A stretch of 38,346 nucleotides of DNA from Nitrospira sp. (lineage in GTDB: Bacteria; Pseudomonadota; Gammaproteobacteria; Acidiferrobacterales; SPGG2), in contig VRUB01000008.1 in NCBI GenBank assembly GCA_019456345.1, positions 1 to 38,346 on the forward strand, in the 5' to 3' direction. The first letter of the stretch is position 1, and each line of letters starts with the position of its first letter. Below the pieces are notes generated by a model, which was not told the origin of the DNA, made no database searches, and was given only the letters and a program-made list of their open reading frames with translations. This document shows positions 5,475 through 22,806 of the stretch, in pieces. Both the position numbers and the translations under genes were made by a program.

Positions 5475-5484
5475 GGTTCCAGTT

Positions 5485-9034
<3,550 letters not shown>

Positions 9035-13378: not shown

Positions 13379-14125
13379 TCACTCGGCCCCTTCGAGTAAC
13401 TCGAGCTGCTCGAACATCTCCCCGATGGCAAACGACTCGATGAGATTGACCCCTCTTGCCGCCAGGCGGAATGCAAGTCGGGCGTCGGCGATCTCGTAGA
13501 CCATGAGCTTGGCTCCGGGGACACGCAGCTTGCCCCAACGCGGCAACACTCCGACCTCGCAAATCACATAGCCCGGCCGCACCTGGCGCAGGATCGCGTC
13601 CTTGCGTTGGCTCCACTTCTGGATGATCGCGCCAAGATTCTCCACTTCCTGGTTGCGGGCGGTGAGAAGCACGTCGAAGGAAAACGAAATAATGACAACC
13701 TGCTGAGCCACCGATTCGAGCTCGCGCATCACGCGATTGAGTACGACCGTCGGGCCGAAGTGCTCGGTGCTCGAGCGCTTTAGTTCGATGAATGCAGTAA
13801 CACCCGGATGGCTCTCCAACAACTCGCGAAACTCGGCCAGGCTCGGGATACGTACTTGCGAGAATCGATAACCGAAGCGCTCATACTCGCTCGGGTGCAG
13901 CCGTCGCAACTCCGCGAACGACATATGGTGCACTACACCCTTGACGCCGCATACCCGTTGTATGGTGCGATCGTGCAGGAGCACGGGCACCTCGTCGGCA
14001 CTGAGCTGAATGTCGACTTCCACGAAACGCGCGCCGGCGCGGATCGCGGCCATGATTCCGAGTAACGTATTTTCCGGGAAATGGTCAGGATAGCCCCGAT
14101 GTGCAACGAGCTGCAGCTTATTCAT
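13379..14125 (-). CDS. glycerophosphodiester phosphodiesterase family protein
   Basis: Hydrolyses glycerophosphodiesters to glycerol 3-phosphate and an alcohol, in the cytoplasm since no signal peptide is seen. The catalytic HRGYPDHFPENT, the metal ligands EVDIQLSADEVPVLLHD and the later FIELKR are all present on a short TIM barrel of 248 residues. The frame is open to 14197, but the family begins at MNKLQLVAHRG, so I chose the ATG at 14125; no strong Shine-Dalgarno precedes it. Its product could feed glycerol metabolism, in line with the neighbouring glycerol-kinase-like gene, although the two are convergent, not cotranscribed. Confidence 0.88.
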   Translation of the reverse strand: MNKLQLVAHRGYPDHFPENTLLGIMAAIRAGARFVEVDIQLSADEVPVLLHDRTIQRVCGVKGVVHHMSFAELRRLHPSEYERFGYRFSQVRIPSLAEFRELLESHPGVTAFIELKRSSTEHFGPTVVLNRVMRELESVAQQVVIISFSFDVLLTARNQEVENLGAIIQKWSQRKDAILRQVRPGYVICEVGVLPRWGKLRVPGAKLMVYEIADARLAFRLAARGVNLIESFAIGEMFEQLELLEGAE

Positions 14126-14296
14126 CTGTTTTTGGCAGCAACGAACCCCAAGCGGGAGATTACGGTTCGTGCATCCCGTTGCCTCTCGCTGAGACACCTA
14201 TATAACAATATTATAAACGTAGCAGAACCTGGGATTTGACGTAAGCGGCAACGACGCGTATATTTCCCGCTACCACCGTGGTCAAGGGAAGGTACC

Positions 14297-14911
14297 ATGG
14301 TACAGTGTTTTTTCCGAGAAAGGACGTCAGGCGCAGCAGCTGCGTACTTCGCCGCGGCGCTGCTATTAGCTTTGCTGCTGTTAGCTGCCCCCCACAGCCG
14401 CGCACAGGCGAGCGCCGCCTTCACCGCGCATCCACCCGTATTCTTCGAGCTCAGGCGCGACCGTGCGCTGGTCTATCTGGTCAACGATCTGAGCGACGGG
14501 ACCGCGCGCGTCTACATTGACAGCGCGCCGATCGGCTTTCTTCCCCGTCGCTCCTACACGGCGGCCATGGTCGAGCCGGGTTTTCGGCTGGTGTGGGGCA
14601 CGGCTGAGCCCAAATGGTACGAGTTCAAGGCCGGCTGGGCCTACCTGCTGCGCCGGGTCAGGCTCAACCCGCTTGCGCACGCATGGGTCGCGGATAATCC
14701 TGGCATCATCGGGGCGCTGGTGGCGGACAAGCGCTTGAGTTACGTAACCACGGACCGTGAGACGCTTATGCGCCAGCAGATACGGGCGCAGAAGGCGTTC
14801 CGAGACGCGCTCAAACGCGCCGGCAGCGAGCTCGCACTGCCCTATCGAAAACGCTTTCACACCGAAGATCTGGCAGGCCGCTCGCCGGCGATGCTGCAGG
14901 CTGAGCGCTAA
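14297..14911 (+). CDS. exported DUF2846-like protein of unknown function
   Basis: A 204-residue protein with an N-terminal membrane or signal segment (alanine- and leucine-rich, residues 13-32; possible cleavage at SRAQA-SA near 38). The mature part, 'RALVYLVNDLSDGTARVYIDSAPIGFLPRRSYTAAMVEPG', resembles the beta-rich DUF2846 fold in which a short phrase about an object's name, position and cleft is followed by 'PG.H.lwg'. That resemblance is by eye. The C-terminal 60 residues are helical and charged. The start ATG at 14297 has GGAAGG five bases upstream. It is convergent with metH. Function is unknown. Confidence 0.6.
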   Translation: MVQCFFRERTSGAAAAYFAAALLLALLLLAAPHSRAQASAAFTAHPPVFFELRRDRALVYLVNDLSDGTARVYIDSAPIGFLPRRSYTAAMVEPGFRLVWGTAEPKWYEFKAGWAYLLRRVRLNPLAHAWVADNPGIIGALVADKRLSYVTTDRETLMRQQIRAQKAFRDALKRAGSELALPYRKRFHTEDLAGRSPAMLQAER

Positions 14912-14977
14912 CGAACCTGTTGAAAAATCCAGCGGCCGCCGCCGTGAATTCCCATATTTTAGCTTTTTAAAATTCTT

Positions 14978-17900
14978 CTAAGCGGCGGCTTCGGTCGCAT
15001 TGCGGTCGTACCCAAGCACCGGCGCCAGCCAGCGCTCTACTTCCTGTACGCTCATGCCCTTGCGCGCAGCGTAATCCTGCACCTGGTCGCGCTCGATCTT
15101 GCTCACCCCGAAGTAGCGACTCTGCGGGTGGGCGAAGTAAAACCCGCTGACCGATGCCGCCGGCATCATGGCAAAATTCTCTGTCAAACGAATCTCGCTG
15201 TTGTCCTCGACGCGAAGCAAGTCGAACAGGATGCGCTTTTCGGTATGATCGGGGCAGGCCGGGTAGCCGGGGGCCGGGCGAATGCCCGTGTACTGCTCAC
15301 GCATAAGCGCCAGGTTATCCAGGCCCTCGTCCGGCGCGTAGCCCCAGAACTCCTTACGCACGCGCTCGTGCATGCGCTCGGCGAAGGCCTCGGCCAGACG
15401 GTCGGCGAGTGCCTTGGCCATGATGGCGCCGTAATCGTCGTGATCGCCCTCGAGGCGGTGGACGACCTCATCGAGGCCGAAGCCCGCGCTAACGGCGAAG
15501 GCGCCGACGAAGTCCTTGACGCCAGAGTCGCGCGGCGCGAGGAAATCGGCCAACGCCAGGTTGGGCCGCCCGCGCGGTCGCACCATCTGCTGGCGCAAGG
15601 TGTGGAAGGTGGTCAGGACCGCACTGCGAGACGCGTCAGCGTAGACCACAATGTCATCATCGTCGGTGCTGTTGGCGGGCCAGAGGCCGATTACCGCGCG
15701 CGGCTTGAGCCAGCCCTCCTCGATAATCTGTTTGAGCATCTCGCTGGCATCGGCGAACAGTGCTCGCGCCGCTTCGCCCACCGTCTTGTCTTCGAGGATG
15801 CGTGGATACACCCCGGCGAGGTCCCAACTCTTGAAGAACGGCGTCCAGTCGATGTATCGCGACAGTTCTTCGAGATCGTAGTCGTCGAACACCTTGATCC
15901 CGAGGAACGCGGGAGCGGGAGGCCTGTAGGCCTGCCAGTCGAGCTGGCACTTGTTGGCGCGCGCCTCAGCCAGCGTGGCCCGGCGAATGTCGCGGCGTTG
16001 TGCCGCACGCTGTTGTCGCGTGGCATCGTAGTCGGCGCGCACTTGTGCCGCGAACTCCCCGTTGCCATCGCCCAGCAGGCTGCTGACCACGCTGACCGCG
16101 CGCGAGGCATCGGGGACATAGACGGTGGGGCCGCTATAGTTGGGCGCGATCTTCACCGCCGTGTGCATGCGGCTGGTGGTGGCGCCCCCGATGAGCAGCG
16201 GCAACTTGAACCCTTCGCGCTCCATCTCGCTCGCCACGTGGCACATCTCCTCGAGACTGGGCGTAATGAGCCCTGAGACCCCGACAATGTCGGCGCCCTC
16301 GGCTTTCGCCGTCTCCAGGATACGCGCGCTCGGTACCATTACGCCAAGATCGATTACCTCGTAGTTGTTGCAACTAAGCACGACGCCGACGATATTTTTA
16401 CCGATGTCATGCACATCGCCCTTGGCCGTGGCCAATACGACCTTGGCGGCGCTACGCCGCTCTTGCCCATCGCCCTTTTCGTCCTCAATGTAGGGCTCGA
16501 GATAGGCGACCGCTTTTTTCATTACGCGTGCGCTCTTGACCACCTGCGGCAGAAACATCTTGCCGGCACCGAATAGATCGCCGACCACATTCATGCCGTC
16601 CATGAGCGGTCCCTCGATCACCTCGAGCGCGCGCTTCGCCGACACCCGCGCGTCCTCGGTATCGGCGATGATGTAATTGTCGATGCCGTGCACCAGCGCG
16701 TGCACCAGGCGGCCACGCACATCGCCCTCGCGCCAACGCAAGTCTTCTTTCTTTTGTTGCACCTGTCCCCGTACCGTCTGCGCGATCTCGAGCAGCCGCT
16801 CGGTGGCATCGGGCCGGCGGTTGAACAGCACATCCTCGATACACTCCCGCACCGCGGGCTCGATGTCCTGGTACAGCGGCAGCTTGCCGGCATTGACAAT
16901 CGCCATGTCGAGCCCGGCCTTGATTGCGTGGTACAGAAATACCGCGTGCATGGCCTCACGCAAAGCGTTGTTGCCGCGAAAGGAAAACGAGAAATTGGAC
17001 ACGCCGCCGGAAATCTTCACATGCGGCAGTCTTTGTTTAATCAACCGCGTCGCCTCGATAAATGCCTTGCCATATTCGTTATGTGCCTCGATCCCGGTCG
17101 CGACCGCGAAGATATTCGGGTCGAACACGATGTCCTCCGGCGGGAAGCCGACCTGCTCGGTGAGGATCCGATAGGCACGCTCGCAAATCTCGACCTTGCG
17201 TTCGACGGTGTCGGCCTGTCCCTGCTCGTCGAACGCCATCACTACGGTGGCGGCGCCGTAACGCTTGATCAGGCATGCCTGCTTGATAAAGGTTTGCTCC
17301 CCCTCCTTCAGGCTGATGGAGTTGACGAACCCTTTGCCCTGCACGCACTTCAATCCGGCCTCGATCACCGACCACTTCGAGGAATCGATCATCACCGGCA
17401 CGCGGCTGATATCAGGCTCGGCCGCGATCAGGTTCAAGAAGCGCGGCATGGCAGCCTCGGAGTCGAGCATGCCTTCATCCATGTTCACGTCGATCAACTG
17501 GGCACCGTTCTCGACCTGCTCACGGGCTATGCTCACGCCGCTCTCGTAGTCCTCGGCAGCGATGAGCTTGGCGAACTTCGCCGATCCGGTGACGTTGGTG
17601 CGCTCCCCGACATTGACAAACAGGCTGTCCGGCCCGATGGTCAGGGGCTCAAGCCCGGAGAGCCGGCAACGCGCCGGCAGCCTTGGCAGCTTGCGCGCCG
17701 GATGCGCAGCGACTGCCTCGCTGATAGCGCGGATGTGTTCCGGGGTGGTGCCGCAGCAACCACCCGCCAGATTGAGCAGTCCGGCCTGCGCGAACTCACC
17801 GAGCACTGCCGCCATGTGCTCGGGTGTATCGTCGTACCCGCCGAACTCATTTGGTAGACCGGCATTAGGATGGCAGCTCACATGGGTGTCGGCGATCTGC

Positions 17901-18691
17901 GCCAGCTCGTCGATGTAGGGACGCAGCTCCACCGCGCCCAGGGCACAGTTCAGCCCGACTGCCAGCGGTCGCGCGTGGCGCAGCGAATGCCAGAATGCCT
18001 CCGGCGTCTGCCCCGAGAGCGTGCGTCCGCTCAAGTCCGTAATCGTGCCCGAGATCATGATAGGCAGGCGCACGCCATGGCGCTCGAAGTACTCCTCGAT
18101 CGCGAACAGCGCGGCCTTGGCATTCAAGGTGTCGAATACCGTTTCCACCAGCACGATATCCACACCGCCCTCCACCAGGCCGTGCAGCGCTTCGGTGTAG
18201 GCCTCGCGCAACTCGTCGAAGGTCACGCTGCGGTAACCAGGGTCGTTCACCTCGGGCGAGATCGAGGCGGTACGATTGGTCGGACCGAGCACGCCGGCTA
18301 CCCAGCGCGGACGGGCCGGGTTGCGGGCGGTGGCTGTCTGCGCTGCCTCGCGCGCGAGCCGGGCGCCAGCGTGGTTAAGCTCGTAGATCACCGACTCGAG
18401 CCCGTAATCGGCCTGCGCGATGGCGGTCGAGTTGAAGGTATTGGTCTCAACTATGTCTGCGCCGGCCTCGAAGTAGGCGTCGTGGATGCCGCGAATGGCA
18501 TCGGGCTGGGTGATGGAGAGCAGGTCGTTGTTCCCGCGCAGCTCACGGGCATGATCGCAGAAACGCTCGCCGCGGAAGCCGTGCTCATCGAGCTTGAGTG
18601 CCTGGATCATGGTGCCCATAGCCCCGTCCAACACCAGGATCCTGTGGCCGAAGGCCGCGTTCAGGGCTTGTATGCGTTGCTGTCTTTGCAT
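14978..18691 (-). CDS. metH: cobalamin-dependent methionine synthase
   Basis: Transfers a methyl group from 5-methyltetrahydrofolate via cobalamin to homocysteine. The 1237-residue protein has all four modules. The homocysteine domain carries zinc ligands Cys249 (NCALG) and Cys312/Cys313 ([10 protein letters not shown]). The pterin domain has [23 protein letters not shown] and MIDSSKW. The cobalamin domain has the lower-axial-ligand motif VHDIGKN with His761. The C-terminal SAM-dependent reactivation domain has [16 protein letters not shown]. coli MetH is 1227 aa, so length is normal. The start lies three bases after the metF stop, making it the last gene of an operon with metF and the ArsR-methyltransferase regulator. 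No cobalamin riboswitch was seen. Confidence 0.98.
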
Positions 18692-18694
18692 GGC

Positions 18695-19675
18695 TTAACC
18701 GTCGCTGACGGCGCTTGCCGCGATGGGTGCTGCCGGCCGGATGCCGAGGATGTGGCAGATGGCATAGGTCAAGGCAGCGCGGTTGAGGGTATAGAAGTGG
18801 AGATTGCGCACCCCCCGCTGCACGAGCTCGGTGCACTGCTCCGCCGCCACCGTAGCCGCGACCAGTTGGCGCGCCTCGGGGTCATCATCCAGACCTTCGA
18901 ACAAGCCGCCGACCCAATCCGGTACACTGGCCCCGCAGATCGCGGCGAACTCCTTCACGCGCGTGAAGTTGGTCACCGGCAGAATGCCGGGGATGATCGG
19001 TGCGCTGATGCCGGCAGCACGCACCTTGTCGACAAACCGAAAGTACATGTCGGCGTCGAAGAAGAACTGGGTGATGGCACGACTAGCACCGGCATCGAGC
19101 TTGCGCTTGAGATTGTCGAGGTCGGCCTGCGCCGAACGCGCCTCGGGATGCACCTCCGGGTAGGCGGCCACAGTGATATCGAAATCAGCCAGCCGCCGGA
19201 GCCCGGCTACCAGCTCTGCGGCATTGGCATAGCCATCAGGGTGGGGCTGGAAGCGTTGCTCGCGCTCGGGTGGGTCGCCGCGCAGCGCTACGATGTGACG
19301 CACTCCTGTGGCCCAGTAGTGCCGCACCACCTGATCGACCTCGGCGCGCGAGGCGCCGACACAGGTCAAGTGCGCGGCCGGTGTCAGATCGCTCTCCTGT
19401 AGGATACGCTTTACCGTGGCGTGGGTGCGCTCGCGCGTGCTGCCGCCGGCGCCATAGGTCACGGACACGAATTGTGGTTGCAACGGCGCCAGTTTTTCGA
19501 TCGCATGCCAGAGATTTTGCTCCATCTGCTGTGTTTTCGGCGGAAAAAACTCGAACGTCACCGATACCCGTGTCTCATCCGGTGCCAACGGCGCGCGAGC
19601 TTTGAGCTTAAGCCGCCTGGCGACCTTCTCGGCAATACGATGCAGTGCGCTGGTTTCTTGTTGAGCCGATGTCAT
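18695..19675 (-). CDS. metF: methylenetetrahydrofolate reductase MetF
   Basis: FAD-dependent reduction of 5,10-methylenetetrahydrofolate to the 5-methyl form used by MetH, which is the next gene. The 326-residue TIM barrel shows VSVTFEFFPPKT, FVSVTYGAGGSTRERTHATVK, ALRGDPP, the flavin-contact PEVHPEA, and ITQFFFDAD. The ATG at 19675 shares one base with the stop codon of the upstream regulator (TGATG) and has GGAGG seven bases before it, so translation is probably coupled. The frame itself is open to 19732, but that start would fall inside the regulator gene. Confidence 0.96.
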   Translation of the reverse strand: MTSAQQETSALHRIAEKVARRLKLKARAPLAPDETRVSVTFEFFPPKTQQMEQNLWHAIEKLAPLQPQFVSVTYGAGGSTRERTHATVKRILQESDLTPAAHLTCVGASRAEVDQVVRHYWATGVRHIVALRGDPPEREQRFQPHPDGYANAAELVAGLRRLADFDITVAAYPEVHPEARSAQADLDNLKRKLDAGASRAITQFFFDADMYFRFVDKVRAAGISAPIIPGILPVTNFTRVKEFAAICGASVPDWVGGLFEGLDDDPEARQLVAATVAAEQCTELVQRGVRNLHFYTLNRAALTYAICHILGIRPAAPIAASAVSDG

Positions 19676-20655
19676 CAAGCGACCTCCCGCTCGTAAGTCG
19701 CGGCCGAGTCCTTGCGCCGCGTGCTGCACCACAGCGATACGACCAGCTGCTCGCTATCGGTTTTCCCGGCGGCGGCGAGATGGCGCACGGACAGCTCACC
19801 GAGACCGGCGGCCTCGCACCACGAAGCGACCTCGTCGTCAGTGAAACCCAAGCGCCGGTGCGCATACCGGGACCGCAAGAACTCCAGCTGATGCGGCGAG
19901 AAGTCGACAATCAGCAAGCGCCCACCGGGGCGCAGCGTGCGTGCGGCCTCGGCCACAGCCGCGGCCGGGTCATCGAGAAAGTGCAGTACGTGATGGATAA
20001 TGGCAGCGTCCACGGCGCCGCTGGGCAACTCCAGATTGTAGATATCGCCCTGGCGCACCTGGCAATGGCGCAGATTCGACTGCTCGAGATTGGCGCGCGC
20101 TACCGCCAGCATCTCGCGGCTGCAATCGATTCCCAGACCGCGCCGGATGCGGTCGCTGAATACCCGCAACACGTGACCGGTACCGGTGCCGAGGTCCAGC
20201 AGGTCATCGATGGGATCGTCGCCCAGCGCTTCCACCATTGCCCGTTCGACCTCCGACTCGGCCACGTACAAGCTGCGGATGTGGTCCCAGTGCGCGGCGT
20301 TCTCGTCGAAATAGGCTGCGGCACGCGCCGCATGGGCGCGTTTGATCGCCGCGAGCCTTTGCGTGTCGCGCTCAAGCTCGGCATCGTGCTCGGGGATCAG
20401 GTTCGCCAACGCCCGCGCAACCGCTACGGCGGGCCCGTGATCGGCGAAACGGTAGAACACCCATGAGCCCTCCTGGAAGCGATCGATCAACTGTGCCTCG
20501 CACAGGAGCTTCAAATGTCGACTCACCCGCGGTTGGCTCTGGCCGAGAATCTGTGTGAGCTCGGAGACGGTGAGCTCGGCACGCGCGAGCAGCGCCAAAA
20601 GCCGTAATCTCGTTGGTTCCCCGGCGGCCCGAAGGCTGTTGAGCAGGGTCTGCAT
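19675..20655 (-). CDS. ArsR-family regulator fused to a SAM-dependent methyltransferase domain (SahR-like)
   Basis: A 326-residue two-domain protein. Residues 1-75 are a winged helix of the ArsR type (EPTRLRLLALL, then VSELTQILGQSQPRVSRHLKLL and wing EGSWVFYRF). Residues about 110-325 are a class I methyltransferase fold with LDLGTGTGHVLRVF (153 onward), GIDCSREML, and RPGGRLLIVDF. The metal-sensing cysteines of true ArsR proteins are not evident. Proteins of this architecture next to metF, metH or ahcY belong to the SahR group, in which S-adenosylhomocysteine is thought to be sensed; I infer the same here from the operon. The ATG at 20655 has AGGGGG nine bases upstream. It is first gene of regulator-metF-metH and probably autoregulates through the inverted repeat at 20738-20757. 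Confidence 0.88.
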   Translation of the reverse strand: MQTLLNSLRAAGEPTRLRLLALLARAELTVSELTQILGQSQPRVSRHLKLLCEAQLIDRFQEGSWVFYRFADHGPAVAVARALANLIPEHDAELERDTQRLAAIKRAHAARAAAYFDENAAHWDHIRSLYVAESEVERAMVEALGDDPIDDLLDLGTGTGHVLRVFSDRIRRGLGIDCSREMLAVARANLEQSNLRHCQVRQGDIYNLELPSGAVDAAIIHHVLHFLDDPAAAVAEAARTLRPGGRLLIVDFSPHQLEFLRSRYAHRRLGFTDDEVASWCEAAGLGELSVRHLAAAGKTDSEQLVVSLWCSTRRKDSAATYEREVA

Positions 20656-20737
20656 GGATTTACACCCCCTTTGTTCCCGGCGCCCGCTGACATCCCAGGG
20701 ACGGGCGACCAGATCGATCTTTAGTAATCACTTCTAA

Positions 20738-20757
20738 ATATAAACATATCTTTATAT
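20738..20757 (-). promoter_or_regulatory. candidate operator of the ArsR-methyltransferase regulator
   Basis: A perfect inverted repeat: ATATAAA (20738-20744), spacer CATATC, TTTATAT (20751-20757). In an otherwise GC-rich window it is strikingly AT-rich. One arm contains the -10 box of the regulator-metF-metH promoter and the rest fills the spacer, the expected place for a repressor to exclude polymerase. Assignment to this regulator is inference from position. Confidence 0.7.
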
Positions 20758-20766
20758 ATTTGTCAA
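20738..20766 (-). promoter_or_regulatory. sigma-70 promoter of the regulator-metF-metH operon
   Basis: Read on the minus strand: a perfect TTGACA (20766-20761), a 17-base spacer, and TTATAT (20743-20738); TATATT one base further is an alternative -10. Transcription would start near 20731, about 75 bases before the regulator ATG. It is the best-matching promoter I saw in the window. Confidence 0.75.
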
Positions 20767-21032
20767 TGCCTCATTTACCAACGAGCCGGTCCATGGCCAG
20801 CGTGACTCGAACGCGCGCCGCTGTCCTGGAGAAATACGAGGGTTTACCGCGTGTCTGCGGTCCGTTGCGGCGCCCGCGCAGCTTGTTGGGCCGCACATCG
20901 ATTATGTTCGACGCGCTCAGCATAATCCGATAACCGGCTTATGGGGCGGCTACGGAGAGGGGTCGCAGGCGCGTCACAATGGGCCGTGGCCGCAATCGCT
21001 ATGAAATCAGCATATCGGCGACCGGTCAGCCG
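20767..21032. other. intergenic region upstream of the methionine operon
   Basis: Together with the promoter this leaves about 375 bases between the regulator and the next gene. A 46-codon open frame on the plus strand starts at 20793 but has no ribosome site and an arginine-rich, frame-shadow look. No riboswitch, tRNA or repeat was recognised. Confidence 0.4.
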
Positions 21033-21629
21033 TCAATAGCTGAAGCCTTTGAGAGGGCTGCTTCTAATGGTGAGCGTGGGCTGATCGTCGACGTAGACAA
21101 AGCCAACATCTCGATTGTTATCGCTGTGGCCGGGGAACTCGAAACCGACCATGTCGCTGTGACGCGTGACGGCTTCAATGAGCATCTCACCCACGTCGAT
21201 CACGATCTGTTGTCCGACGATGAAATTCTCGATGCCCTGGGCATCAATCTGCAGCGACCACCCGAGATCGGTCATGCCGCTGAGCCTCATGAAAGGTTTC
21301 GTTGGTTTGGAGTGCACCACGGTCAGCACCAACGTGGCCCGATCTACGATCTTTTTTATATTACTGATGTTGTACCAGATTGTGAAACCGGCGTTCTCTG
21401 CCGCGCGACCTTCCCCCGATTGCCGATGTGCGCCTGCGATCAGCAACGTCTTCGGCACCAACGAATGCGACAGCTCGGTCGTGCTGCGTTGAATCGCAAA
21501 GACCGGGGTCAGCACCAGCTCGCTGGTTTGCGCTTTCTTGCGCGCCCAGGCGTCTGCCAGTAACAGCGTGAATACAAGCGCAGCCGCGACGACCGCTATA
21601 CTTGCATGTCCGTGTGTCTCCCGTTTCAC
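21033..21629 (-). CDS. exported protein of unknown function
   Basis: A 198-residue protein with a plausible Sec signal peptide (HASIAVVAAALVFTLLLADAWA, cleavage near residue 29). The mature part is beta-rich ('SELVLTPVFAIQRS', 'AGFTIWYNISNIKKIVDRATLVLTVVHSKP', 'DVGFVYVDDQPTLTIRSS') and has no cysteine. I do not recognise a family. The start is GTG at 21629, with no clear Shine-Dalgarno. The opposite strand carries an open frame of similar length, but only this strand gives a signal peptide and balanced composition. Nothing nearby indicates a role. Confidence 0.55.
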   Translation of the reverse strand: MKRETHGHASIAVVAAALVFTLLLADAWARKKAQTSELVLTPVFAIQRSTTELSHSLVPKTLLIAGAHRQSGEGRAAENAGFTIWYNISNIKKIVDRATLVLTVVHSKPTKPFMRLSGMTDLGWSLQIDAQGIENFIVGQQIVIDVGEMLIEAVTRHSDMVGFEFPGHSDNNRDVGFVYVDDQPTLTIRSSPLKGFSY

Positions 21630-21963
21630 TCGATGTCGCTCAATCGCCTTGGGGTTGGGTCATTATTATCAGGATGCTTAAAATAGTTTTTCAGCAGTCT
21701 ATTATTTATCGTCGCCAGGAAAAAACCCGGCTCCGCACGCCGTAGAAAAACCTTTCTTACTCGGCGGCGACATAATTGCGTGGCGCCAAGCGAAAAGCCA
21801 GATCGATTGCTTGGTGACTTTTTCGGCGCGGCGGCTGCTACCGTAGGCCGCTTGCACCGCCAGGTCGCTGGCCAATATTGTTGATTGCGTGCAGCATGGG
21901 TTTTGCAGCTTCATCGACTATTGGGCTCGATTGCCAATAGCTACGGCAACTAAGGGTAATTGG
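21630..21963. other. intergenic region with a repeated 16-mer
   Basis: About 330 bases before the ankyrin gene. AAAATAGTTTTTCAGC at 21680-21695 recurs exactly at 29763-29778 inside a palindrome. Imperfectly paired GTCGCC (21711) and GGCGAC (21765) flank a region with runs of A. A 70-codon minus-strand frame (21702-21914) lacks a ribosome site and I do not call it. The area may be the relic of a mobile element end. Confidence 0.4.
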
Positions 21964-22806
21964 ATGAAGAGCATACTAGGGCTCATTATGGCGACTTTAT
22001 GCGCCGGGTTGTACATCGCGACTGCCGCACAGGCGGGACCGCTGCACGATGCAGTGAAGAGGGGTGACCAGGCGCAGGTCAAGCGACTGCTTGGCGATGC
22101 GGCGAATATTGATGCGCGTGCCCGCGACGGTGCGACGCCATTGATTATCGCCGTGCTGACCCGCCGCGATGCGGTGGCGCGGCTGCTCATCGCGCGCGGC
22201 GCCGGCGTCAATGCCAAGCGCAAGGACGGCGTCACACCGCTGCACGCCGCCGCCCGCACCGGCGCAAGCGCTATTGCCGAGCTCTTGATCACCAAAGGCG
22301 CGGCTCTCGATGCGCAGAACTGGGGTGGCTGGACGCCGCTGCACACTGCAGCGCAAGAGGGTCATACCAATGTGGCGACGGTGCTGATCGCACGCGGCGC
22401 CGAGCTGAACGCGGCTGACAAAGACGGGCTGACGCCGTTGCATATGGCCGTGTTCGATGGTCATATCGAGTTGGTGAAGCTGCTCGTGGCGGACGGCGCC
22501 GACGTTAATGCACGCGGCATGGGGGGATTTACGCCGCTACACATGGCGGCCGGCATGGGACGCCCTGCCATCGCCGAGCTGCTCGTTGACAAGGGTGCCG
22601 ATGTAAATGCGCGCGACCGACGTGGCTTGACGCCGCTGCACGGGGCGGCCGCTTATGACCACAGGGGTGCAGTGCAGTTGCTGCTCGCCCGTGGCGCCAG
22701 CGTCGATGTAAGCACCCAGGACGGTCGCACACCGTTAAGCATGGCGACGAAGGAGGGGAATCAGAAAATCGCCGAGCTACTCCGGCGCCATGGGGCGGGC
22801 AAGTAA
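21964..22806 (+). CDS. exported ankyrin-repeat protein
   Basis: A 280-residue protein made of a signal peptide (MKSILGLIMATLCAGLYIATAAQA, cleavage before GPLHDAV) and eight consecutive 33-residue ankyrin repeats. Most repeats keep the xTPLHxAA...G....V..LL..GA.vNA pattern; the first and last are capping variants. No other domain is present, so it should act as a protein-binding scaffold in the periplasm or outside the cell. The ATG at 21964 has AAGGG seven bases upstream; the frame is open from 21889, but that would bury the signal peptide. Partner unknown. Confidence 0.88.
   Translation: MKSILGLIMATLCAGLYIATAAQAGPLHDAVKRGDQAQVKRLLGDAANIDARARDGATPLIIAVLTRRDAVARLLIARGAGVNAKRKDGVTPLHAAARTGASAIAELLITKGAALDAQNWGGWTPLHTAAQEGHTNVATVLIARGAELNAADKDGLTPLHMAVFDGHIELVKLLVADGADVNARGMGGFTPLHMAAGMGRPAIAELLVDKGADVNARDRRGLTPLHGAAAYDHRGAVQLLLARGASVDVSTQDGRTPLSMATKEGNQKIAELLRRHGAGK

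Follow-up and report, generated by a model that had tools for sequence, protein, structure and literature searches.

A 38,346-nucleotide stretch of Nitrospira sp. DNA, here called the window (assembly GCA_019456345.1, contig VRUB01000008.1, positions 1 to 38,346 of the forward strand), very probably carries a SahR-type repressor operator that lies over the sigma-70-type promoter of a sahR-metF-metH operon, with an S-adenosylhomocysteine (SAH)-type ligand relieving repression. We infer binding, repression, and the role of SAH as the ligand. The locus is a well-preserved new example of the known SahR system, not a new system. The source genome (2.99 Mb in 413 contigs; completeness, 84.6%) has the GTDB lineage Bacteria; Pseudomonadota; Gammaproteobacteria; Acidiferrobacterales; SPGG2.

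The features of the locus are collected in Table 1. On the minus strand, inspection of the sequence from position 20766 gives TTGACA-AATATATAAAGATATGT-TTATAT-TTAGAAG, and the distance from this site (20738 to 20766) to the start of the ArsR-methyltransferase gene is 82 bases. TTGACA, TTATAT, ATATAAA, GATATG, and TTTATAT were all found on the minus strand where the original prediction had placed them. That prediction had also described a near-consensus promoter, TTGACA-17-TTATAT. The site indeed ranked first in a promoter scan of positions 14000 to 22000, but its best score requires TATATT at a spacing of 18. Because this combination gives 11 of 12 consensus matches and TTATAT agrees with TATAAT at only three of six positions, TATATT (20742 to 20737) is more likely to be the -10 hexamer.

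TABLE 1 Features of the sahR-metF-metH locus (window positions)
Feature	Position	Strand	Basis
metH, cobalamin-dependent methionine synthase, 1237 aa, full-length	14978..18691	minus	2136 bits to PRK09490
metF, methylenetetrahydrofolate reductase	18695..19675	minus	PF02219 and NCBIfam methylenetetrahydrofolate reductase
sahR-type regulator gene, 326 aa, ATG at 20655	19675..20655	minus	ArsR HTH and Methyltransf_11 domains, orthologues
Probable ribosome-binding site of regulator gene, AGGGGGTG	20663..20670	minus	Sequence inspection
-10 hexamer TATATT, spacing 18	20737..20742	minus	Promoter scan, 11/12 consensus matches
Alternative -10 TTATAT, spacer 17	20738..20743	minus	Choice of the original prediction
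Repeat right arm TTTATAT	20738..20744	minus	Sequence
Repeat middle GATATG	20745..20750	minus	Sequence
Repeat left arm ATATAAA	20751..20757	minus	Sequence
Predicted 20-bp operator ATATAAAGATATGTTTATAT	20738..20757	minus	Phylogenetic footprint over orthologues
-35 hexamer TTGACA	20761..20766	minus	Sequence; part of top promoter-like site in 14000-22000

The regulator, metF, and metH form a compact three-gene operon. Domain matches bore out the ArsR-methyltransferase fusion read earlier from the sequence: the N terminus of the regulator is an ArsR helix-turn-helix (HTH) domain (PF01022, residues 14 to 58, E value of 2.8e-13), and its C-terminal part is a class I methyltransferase (PF08241, Methyltransf_11, residues 153 to 249, E value of 3e-24), the SAM-binding motif of which, LDLGTGTG, is strongly conserved among orthologues. 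SahR proteins carry a C-terminal SAM-dependent methyltransferase-like domain. The overlap between the regulator gene and metF was likewise confirmed and amounts to one base (TGATG) with the metF start at the ATG at 19675, which is preceded by GGGAGG; the metF open reading frame extends back to a GTG at 19732, and the overlap is long only if this upstream GTG is the start. As had been predicted, metH follows metF, beginning four bases past the final base of the metF stop codon, and is a full-length cobalamin-dependent methionine synthase gene. Upstream of the operon, the opposite strand encodes an ankyrin-repeat protein (window positions 21889 to 22806, plus strand). The window also contains a TPP riboswitch (63.8 bits; positions 5480 to 5586, plus strand) just 5' of thiC (5607 to 7520).

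The 7-6-7 repeat alone is weak evidence, since the window contains three perfect 7-6-7 inverted repeats of any sequence compared with 3.9 expected from dinucleotide shuffles. When the local intergenic region was shuffled 500 times, such a repeat arose in 15 cases. When the specific letters of the repeat were searched for with up to three mismatches, three matches (two of which are the same site) were obtained against 0.17 expected. The strong evidence comes from comparison with relatives. Orthologues of the regulator were taken from 80 loci of named genomes as well as from whole genomes belonging to the window's family, order, and class, and one common element, ATATAAAGATATCTTTATAT, was identified upstream of the orthologous genes. 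The 20-mer was found with up to five mismatches in 95 of 98 upstream regions (one locus being counted twice) and in 2 of 980 shuffled regions. Judged by this conservation before nearly all orthologues, the particular sequence of the site is not due to chance. Most of the gammaproteobacterial homologues found have the element that is also seen in alphaproteobacteria.

Among 42 distinct sites, positions 9 to 12 (ATAT, in the middle of the spacer) carry 1.3 to 1.8 bits each, on par with the arms, while positions 8 and 13 are variable and 18 sites have the G seen in the window's GATATG. The centers of the window site and the orthologous sites read GATATC or GATATG. Because the central ATAT is conserved like the arms, the predicted operator is best described as a palindrome of 20 bp that is conserved at its center too, not as a pair of arms around a neutral spacer, and the window copy, ATATAAAGATATGTTTATAT, deviates from the palindrome ATATAAAGATATCTTTATAT by one mismatch. 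The perfect 7-6-7 repeat described originally is thus present, but the unit includes its middle as well. Of 38 orthologous regions, 30 have the operator overlapping their top-scoring promoter-like site, compared with 6.5 expected from random placement, a difference that is inflated by the A+T-rich nature of the operator.

The regulator adjoins metF in nearly all orthologous loci, with metH next in most of them. A relative from the window's family (G003) has two sahR paralogues and a metF gene apart from both; this detached metF has ATATAAAGATCTTTTTATAT upstream, and the two regulator copies, one 5' of metH and the other 5' of the gene for betaine-homocysteine S-methyltransferase, each have their own site. 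The second sahR paralogue and the betaine-homocysteine methyltransferase gene are located near an apparent corrinoid-dependent C1 demethylation cluster (G003:C168:12000-28000), in which genes for a corrinoid protein, a UroD-like methyltransferase, and an activating protein were recognized by eye. Twelve genomes reached through the orthologue loci were searched for the element with up to two mismatches, and one to four sites per genome were found. A site is located directly 5' of ahcY in Stella, Arenibaculum, Niveispirillum, Skermanella, Ferrovibrio, a Sneathiellales genome, and a Rhodospirillaceae genome (the identity of ahcY was confirmed with a model for two genomes and read from the protein sequence for the others). 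The presence of the element at the detached metF and at the alphaproteobacterial ahcY genes supports a putative operator role at methionine-cycle genes.

Copies of the motif had also been predicted before ahcY, metK, and metE in the source genome itself, and these were not found. In this 84.6% complete genome, the sahR-metF-metH site alone matches the 16-bp core with no more than one mismatch, and searches for ATATAAA-N6-TTTATAT and ATAAAGATATCTTTAT gave other matches with two or three mismatches but no convincing second site. The other matches that we inspected were within genes or near unrelated genes and were rejected, including one (G000:C186:21784) that falls in a coaBC-like gene. Also rejected was A+T-rich ATATATATAAAGATATACAT between miaA and hfq (G000:C15:1014-1033), which has 7 mismatches to the palindrome in 20 positions; this sequence before hfq resembles half of a SahR operator and is not palindromic. 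The metK and ahcY genes lie head to tail in one operon (C359:25461-27962), upstream of which no site was found in this genome or in the other three genomes of the family. For metE, the source genome gave no full-length match, only shorter ones below the cutoff, which leaves metH as the one complete methionine synthase gene found there. Taken literally, the motif was found at no other methionine-cycle gene of this genome, an outcome named in the original prediction as refuting it. For the operator role, the evidence from relatives outweighs the missing copies, but the regulon is small and apparently reduced.

The leader of the metK-ahcY operon is long, and short recurring elements, such as ATATACCCAC / GTGGGAAATATAT and TTTACATAATAT, are common to several of the four family genomes; a different regulator may bind there. 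An Rfam scan of the metK-ahcY loci gave nothing relevant, and none of the Rfam models matched the region upstream of the sahR-metF-metH operon. A search for SAH riboswitches gave no match either, but since it was equally negative in the control genomes, it does not prove their absence.

SahR is an SAH-responsive member of the ArsR family with a 20-bp palindromic site and a core target set of sahR, ahcY, metH, metF, and metK, occasionally joined by bhmT (Leyn et al. 2014, PMC4239095); PMC4239095 cites Novichkov et al. 2014 for it. The cited literature gives SAH as its established ligand, and its autoregulation is supported in Ensifer aridi (PMC8877191). The window system is similar in its ArsR-family regulator, 20-bp palindrome, predicted autoregulatory site, and putative targets metF and metH. 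Among orthologues that share this operator, the core SahR target ahcY is found as well, and the targets found across the orthologues (sahR, metF, metH, ahcY, and bhmT) are all in the published set. Unlike in the usual SahR regulons, only one operator was found in the window's genome, and the metK-ahcY operon is without a site in the four family genomes. However, since the content of SahR regulons varies between genomes (PMC4239095), the assignment to SahR stands despite the missing ahcY and metK.

ATC-N10-GAT is common to SamR and the gammaproteobacterial SahR, the alphaproteobacterial motif being described only as slightly different (PMC4239095). The window site lacks ATC-N10-GAT and in this respect differs from the published gammaproteobacterial SahR consensus as described in the text of that paper. 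SamR of the Xanthomonadales recognizes a 24-bp palindrome with ATC-N10-GAT, and its larger regulon includes metK, metB, metE, metX2, and hom (PMC4239095). The window system shares with SamR an ArsR-family SahR homologue linked to metH, whereas the window operator is 20 bp long with a GATATG center. It is also similar to the MetJ and SAH riboswitch systems of other gamma- and betaproteobacteria, in which metF, metH, and ahcY are controlled by SAM or SAH, but no metJ was found in the four genomes of the window's family. Searching the literature for the operator sequence gave nothing relevant. Overall, the predicted autoregulated methionine regulator with its operator inside the promoter is upheld as a SahR type by the footprint and by the targets in relatives, but the anatomy of the operator, the -10 hexamer, and the genome-wide copies turned out differently.

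In the proposed mechanism, a dimer of the ArsR-methyltransferase protein would bind ATATAAAGATATGTTTATAT at 20738 to 20757 and cover the -10 box together with the spacer of the promoter, so that RNA polymerase would be blocked at the regulator's own promoter (steric autorepression). At elevated levels, SAH or a close relative of it in the methyl cycle would bind the methyltransferase-like domain; the ligand-bound protein would leave the DNA, MetF and MetH would be made, and homocysteine would be remethylated.

It is unlikely, although less so than the other alternatives, that the same repressor and operator respond to SAM as a corepressor or to homocysteine, as proposed for SamR of the Xanthomonadales. 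Such a ligand would be consistent with the window's family, where ahcY and metK are outside motif control and only remethylation genes are inside it, and the authors of the SamR study likewise reasoned from target content, arguing for SAM because metK, but no other SAM-cycle genes, was included (PMC4239095). However, in alphaproteobacteria the same operator appears to control ahcY, the gene for the SAH-clearing enzyme, which fits SAH, and the operator is not of the 24-bp SamR type.

About four perfect 7-6-7 repeats are expected per window, and the site could in principle be an A+T-rich promoter palindrome that arose by chance and binds nothing, but this is highly improbable, as the same 20-mer occurs before alpha- and gammaproteobacterial orthologues and before metF or ahcY located elsewhere. 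It is just as implausible that the regulator senses metals in the manner of ArsR/SmtB and has metF and metH as neighbors only by coincidence. Although the N-terminal domain scores above the cutoff of the "metalloregulator ArsR/SmtB" model, which is a broad subfamily model, the sequence where ArsR has its metal-binding cysteines in alpha-3 reads ELTVSEL and has no cysteine; furthermore, the methyltransferase fusion and the linkage to metF, metH, ahcY, and bhmT are conserved.

The regulator is patchily distributed: of 57 genomes of the order, only 3, which all belong to the window's family, have a close homologue, and of 369 genomes sampled from the class, 15 do. In the regulator tree, the window's family groups, with weak support, with another gammaproteobacterial family; both are placed among alphaproteobacterial sequences and away from the main gammaproteobacterial clade. 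Transfer of the regulator between classes, for example from alphaproteobacteria, is possible, but the tree support is too weak to decide on it. MetH does not help in this respect, since the window's MetH is at about the same distance from the MetH proteins of the order as from those of alphaproteobacteria that have this type of MetH.

Short inverted repeats such as this one are best judged by comparison of orthologues, in which the supposedly neutral spacer proved to be as conserved as the arms. A more tentative suggestion, which we consider possible but doubtful, is that the regulon of a SahR acquired or retained by this one small gammaproteobacterial family has contracted to homocysteine remethylation (metF, metH, and bhmT), with ahcY and metK released, and that the ligand of the regulator may have shifted accordingly. 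The SahR-type operator described here extends a predicted methyl-metabolism circuit to an uncultured gammaproteobacterial lineage and provides a clean operator for testing.
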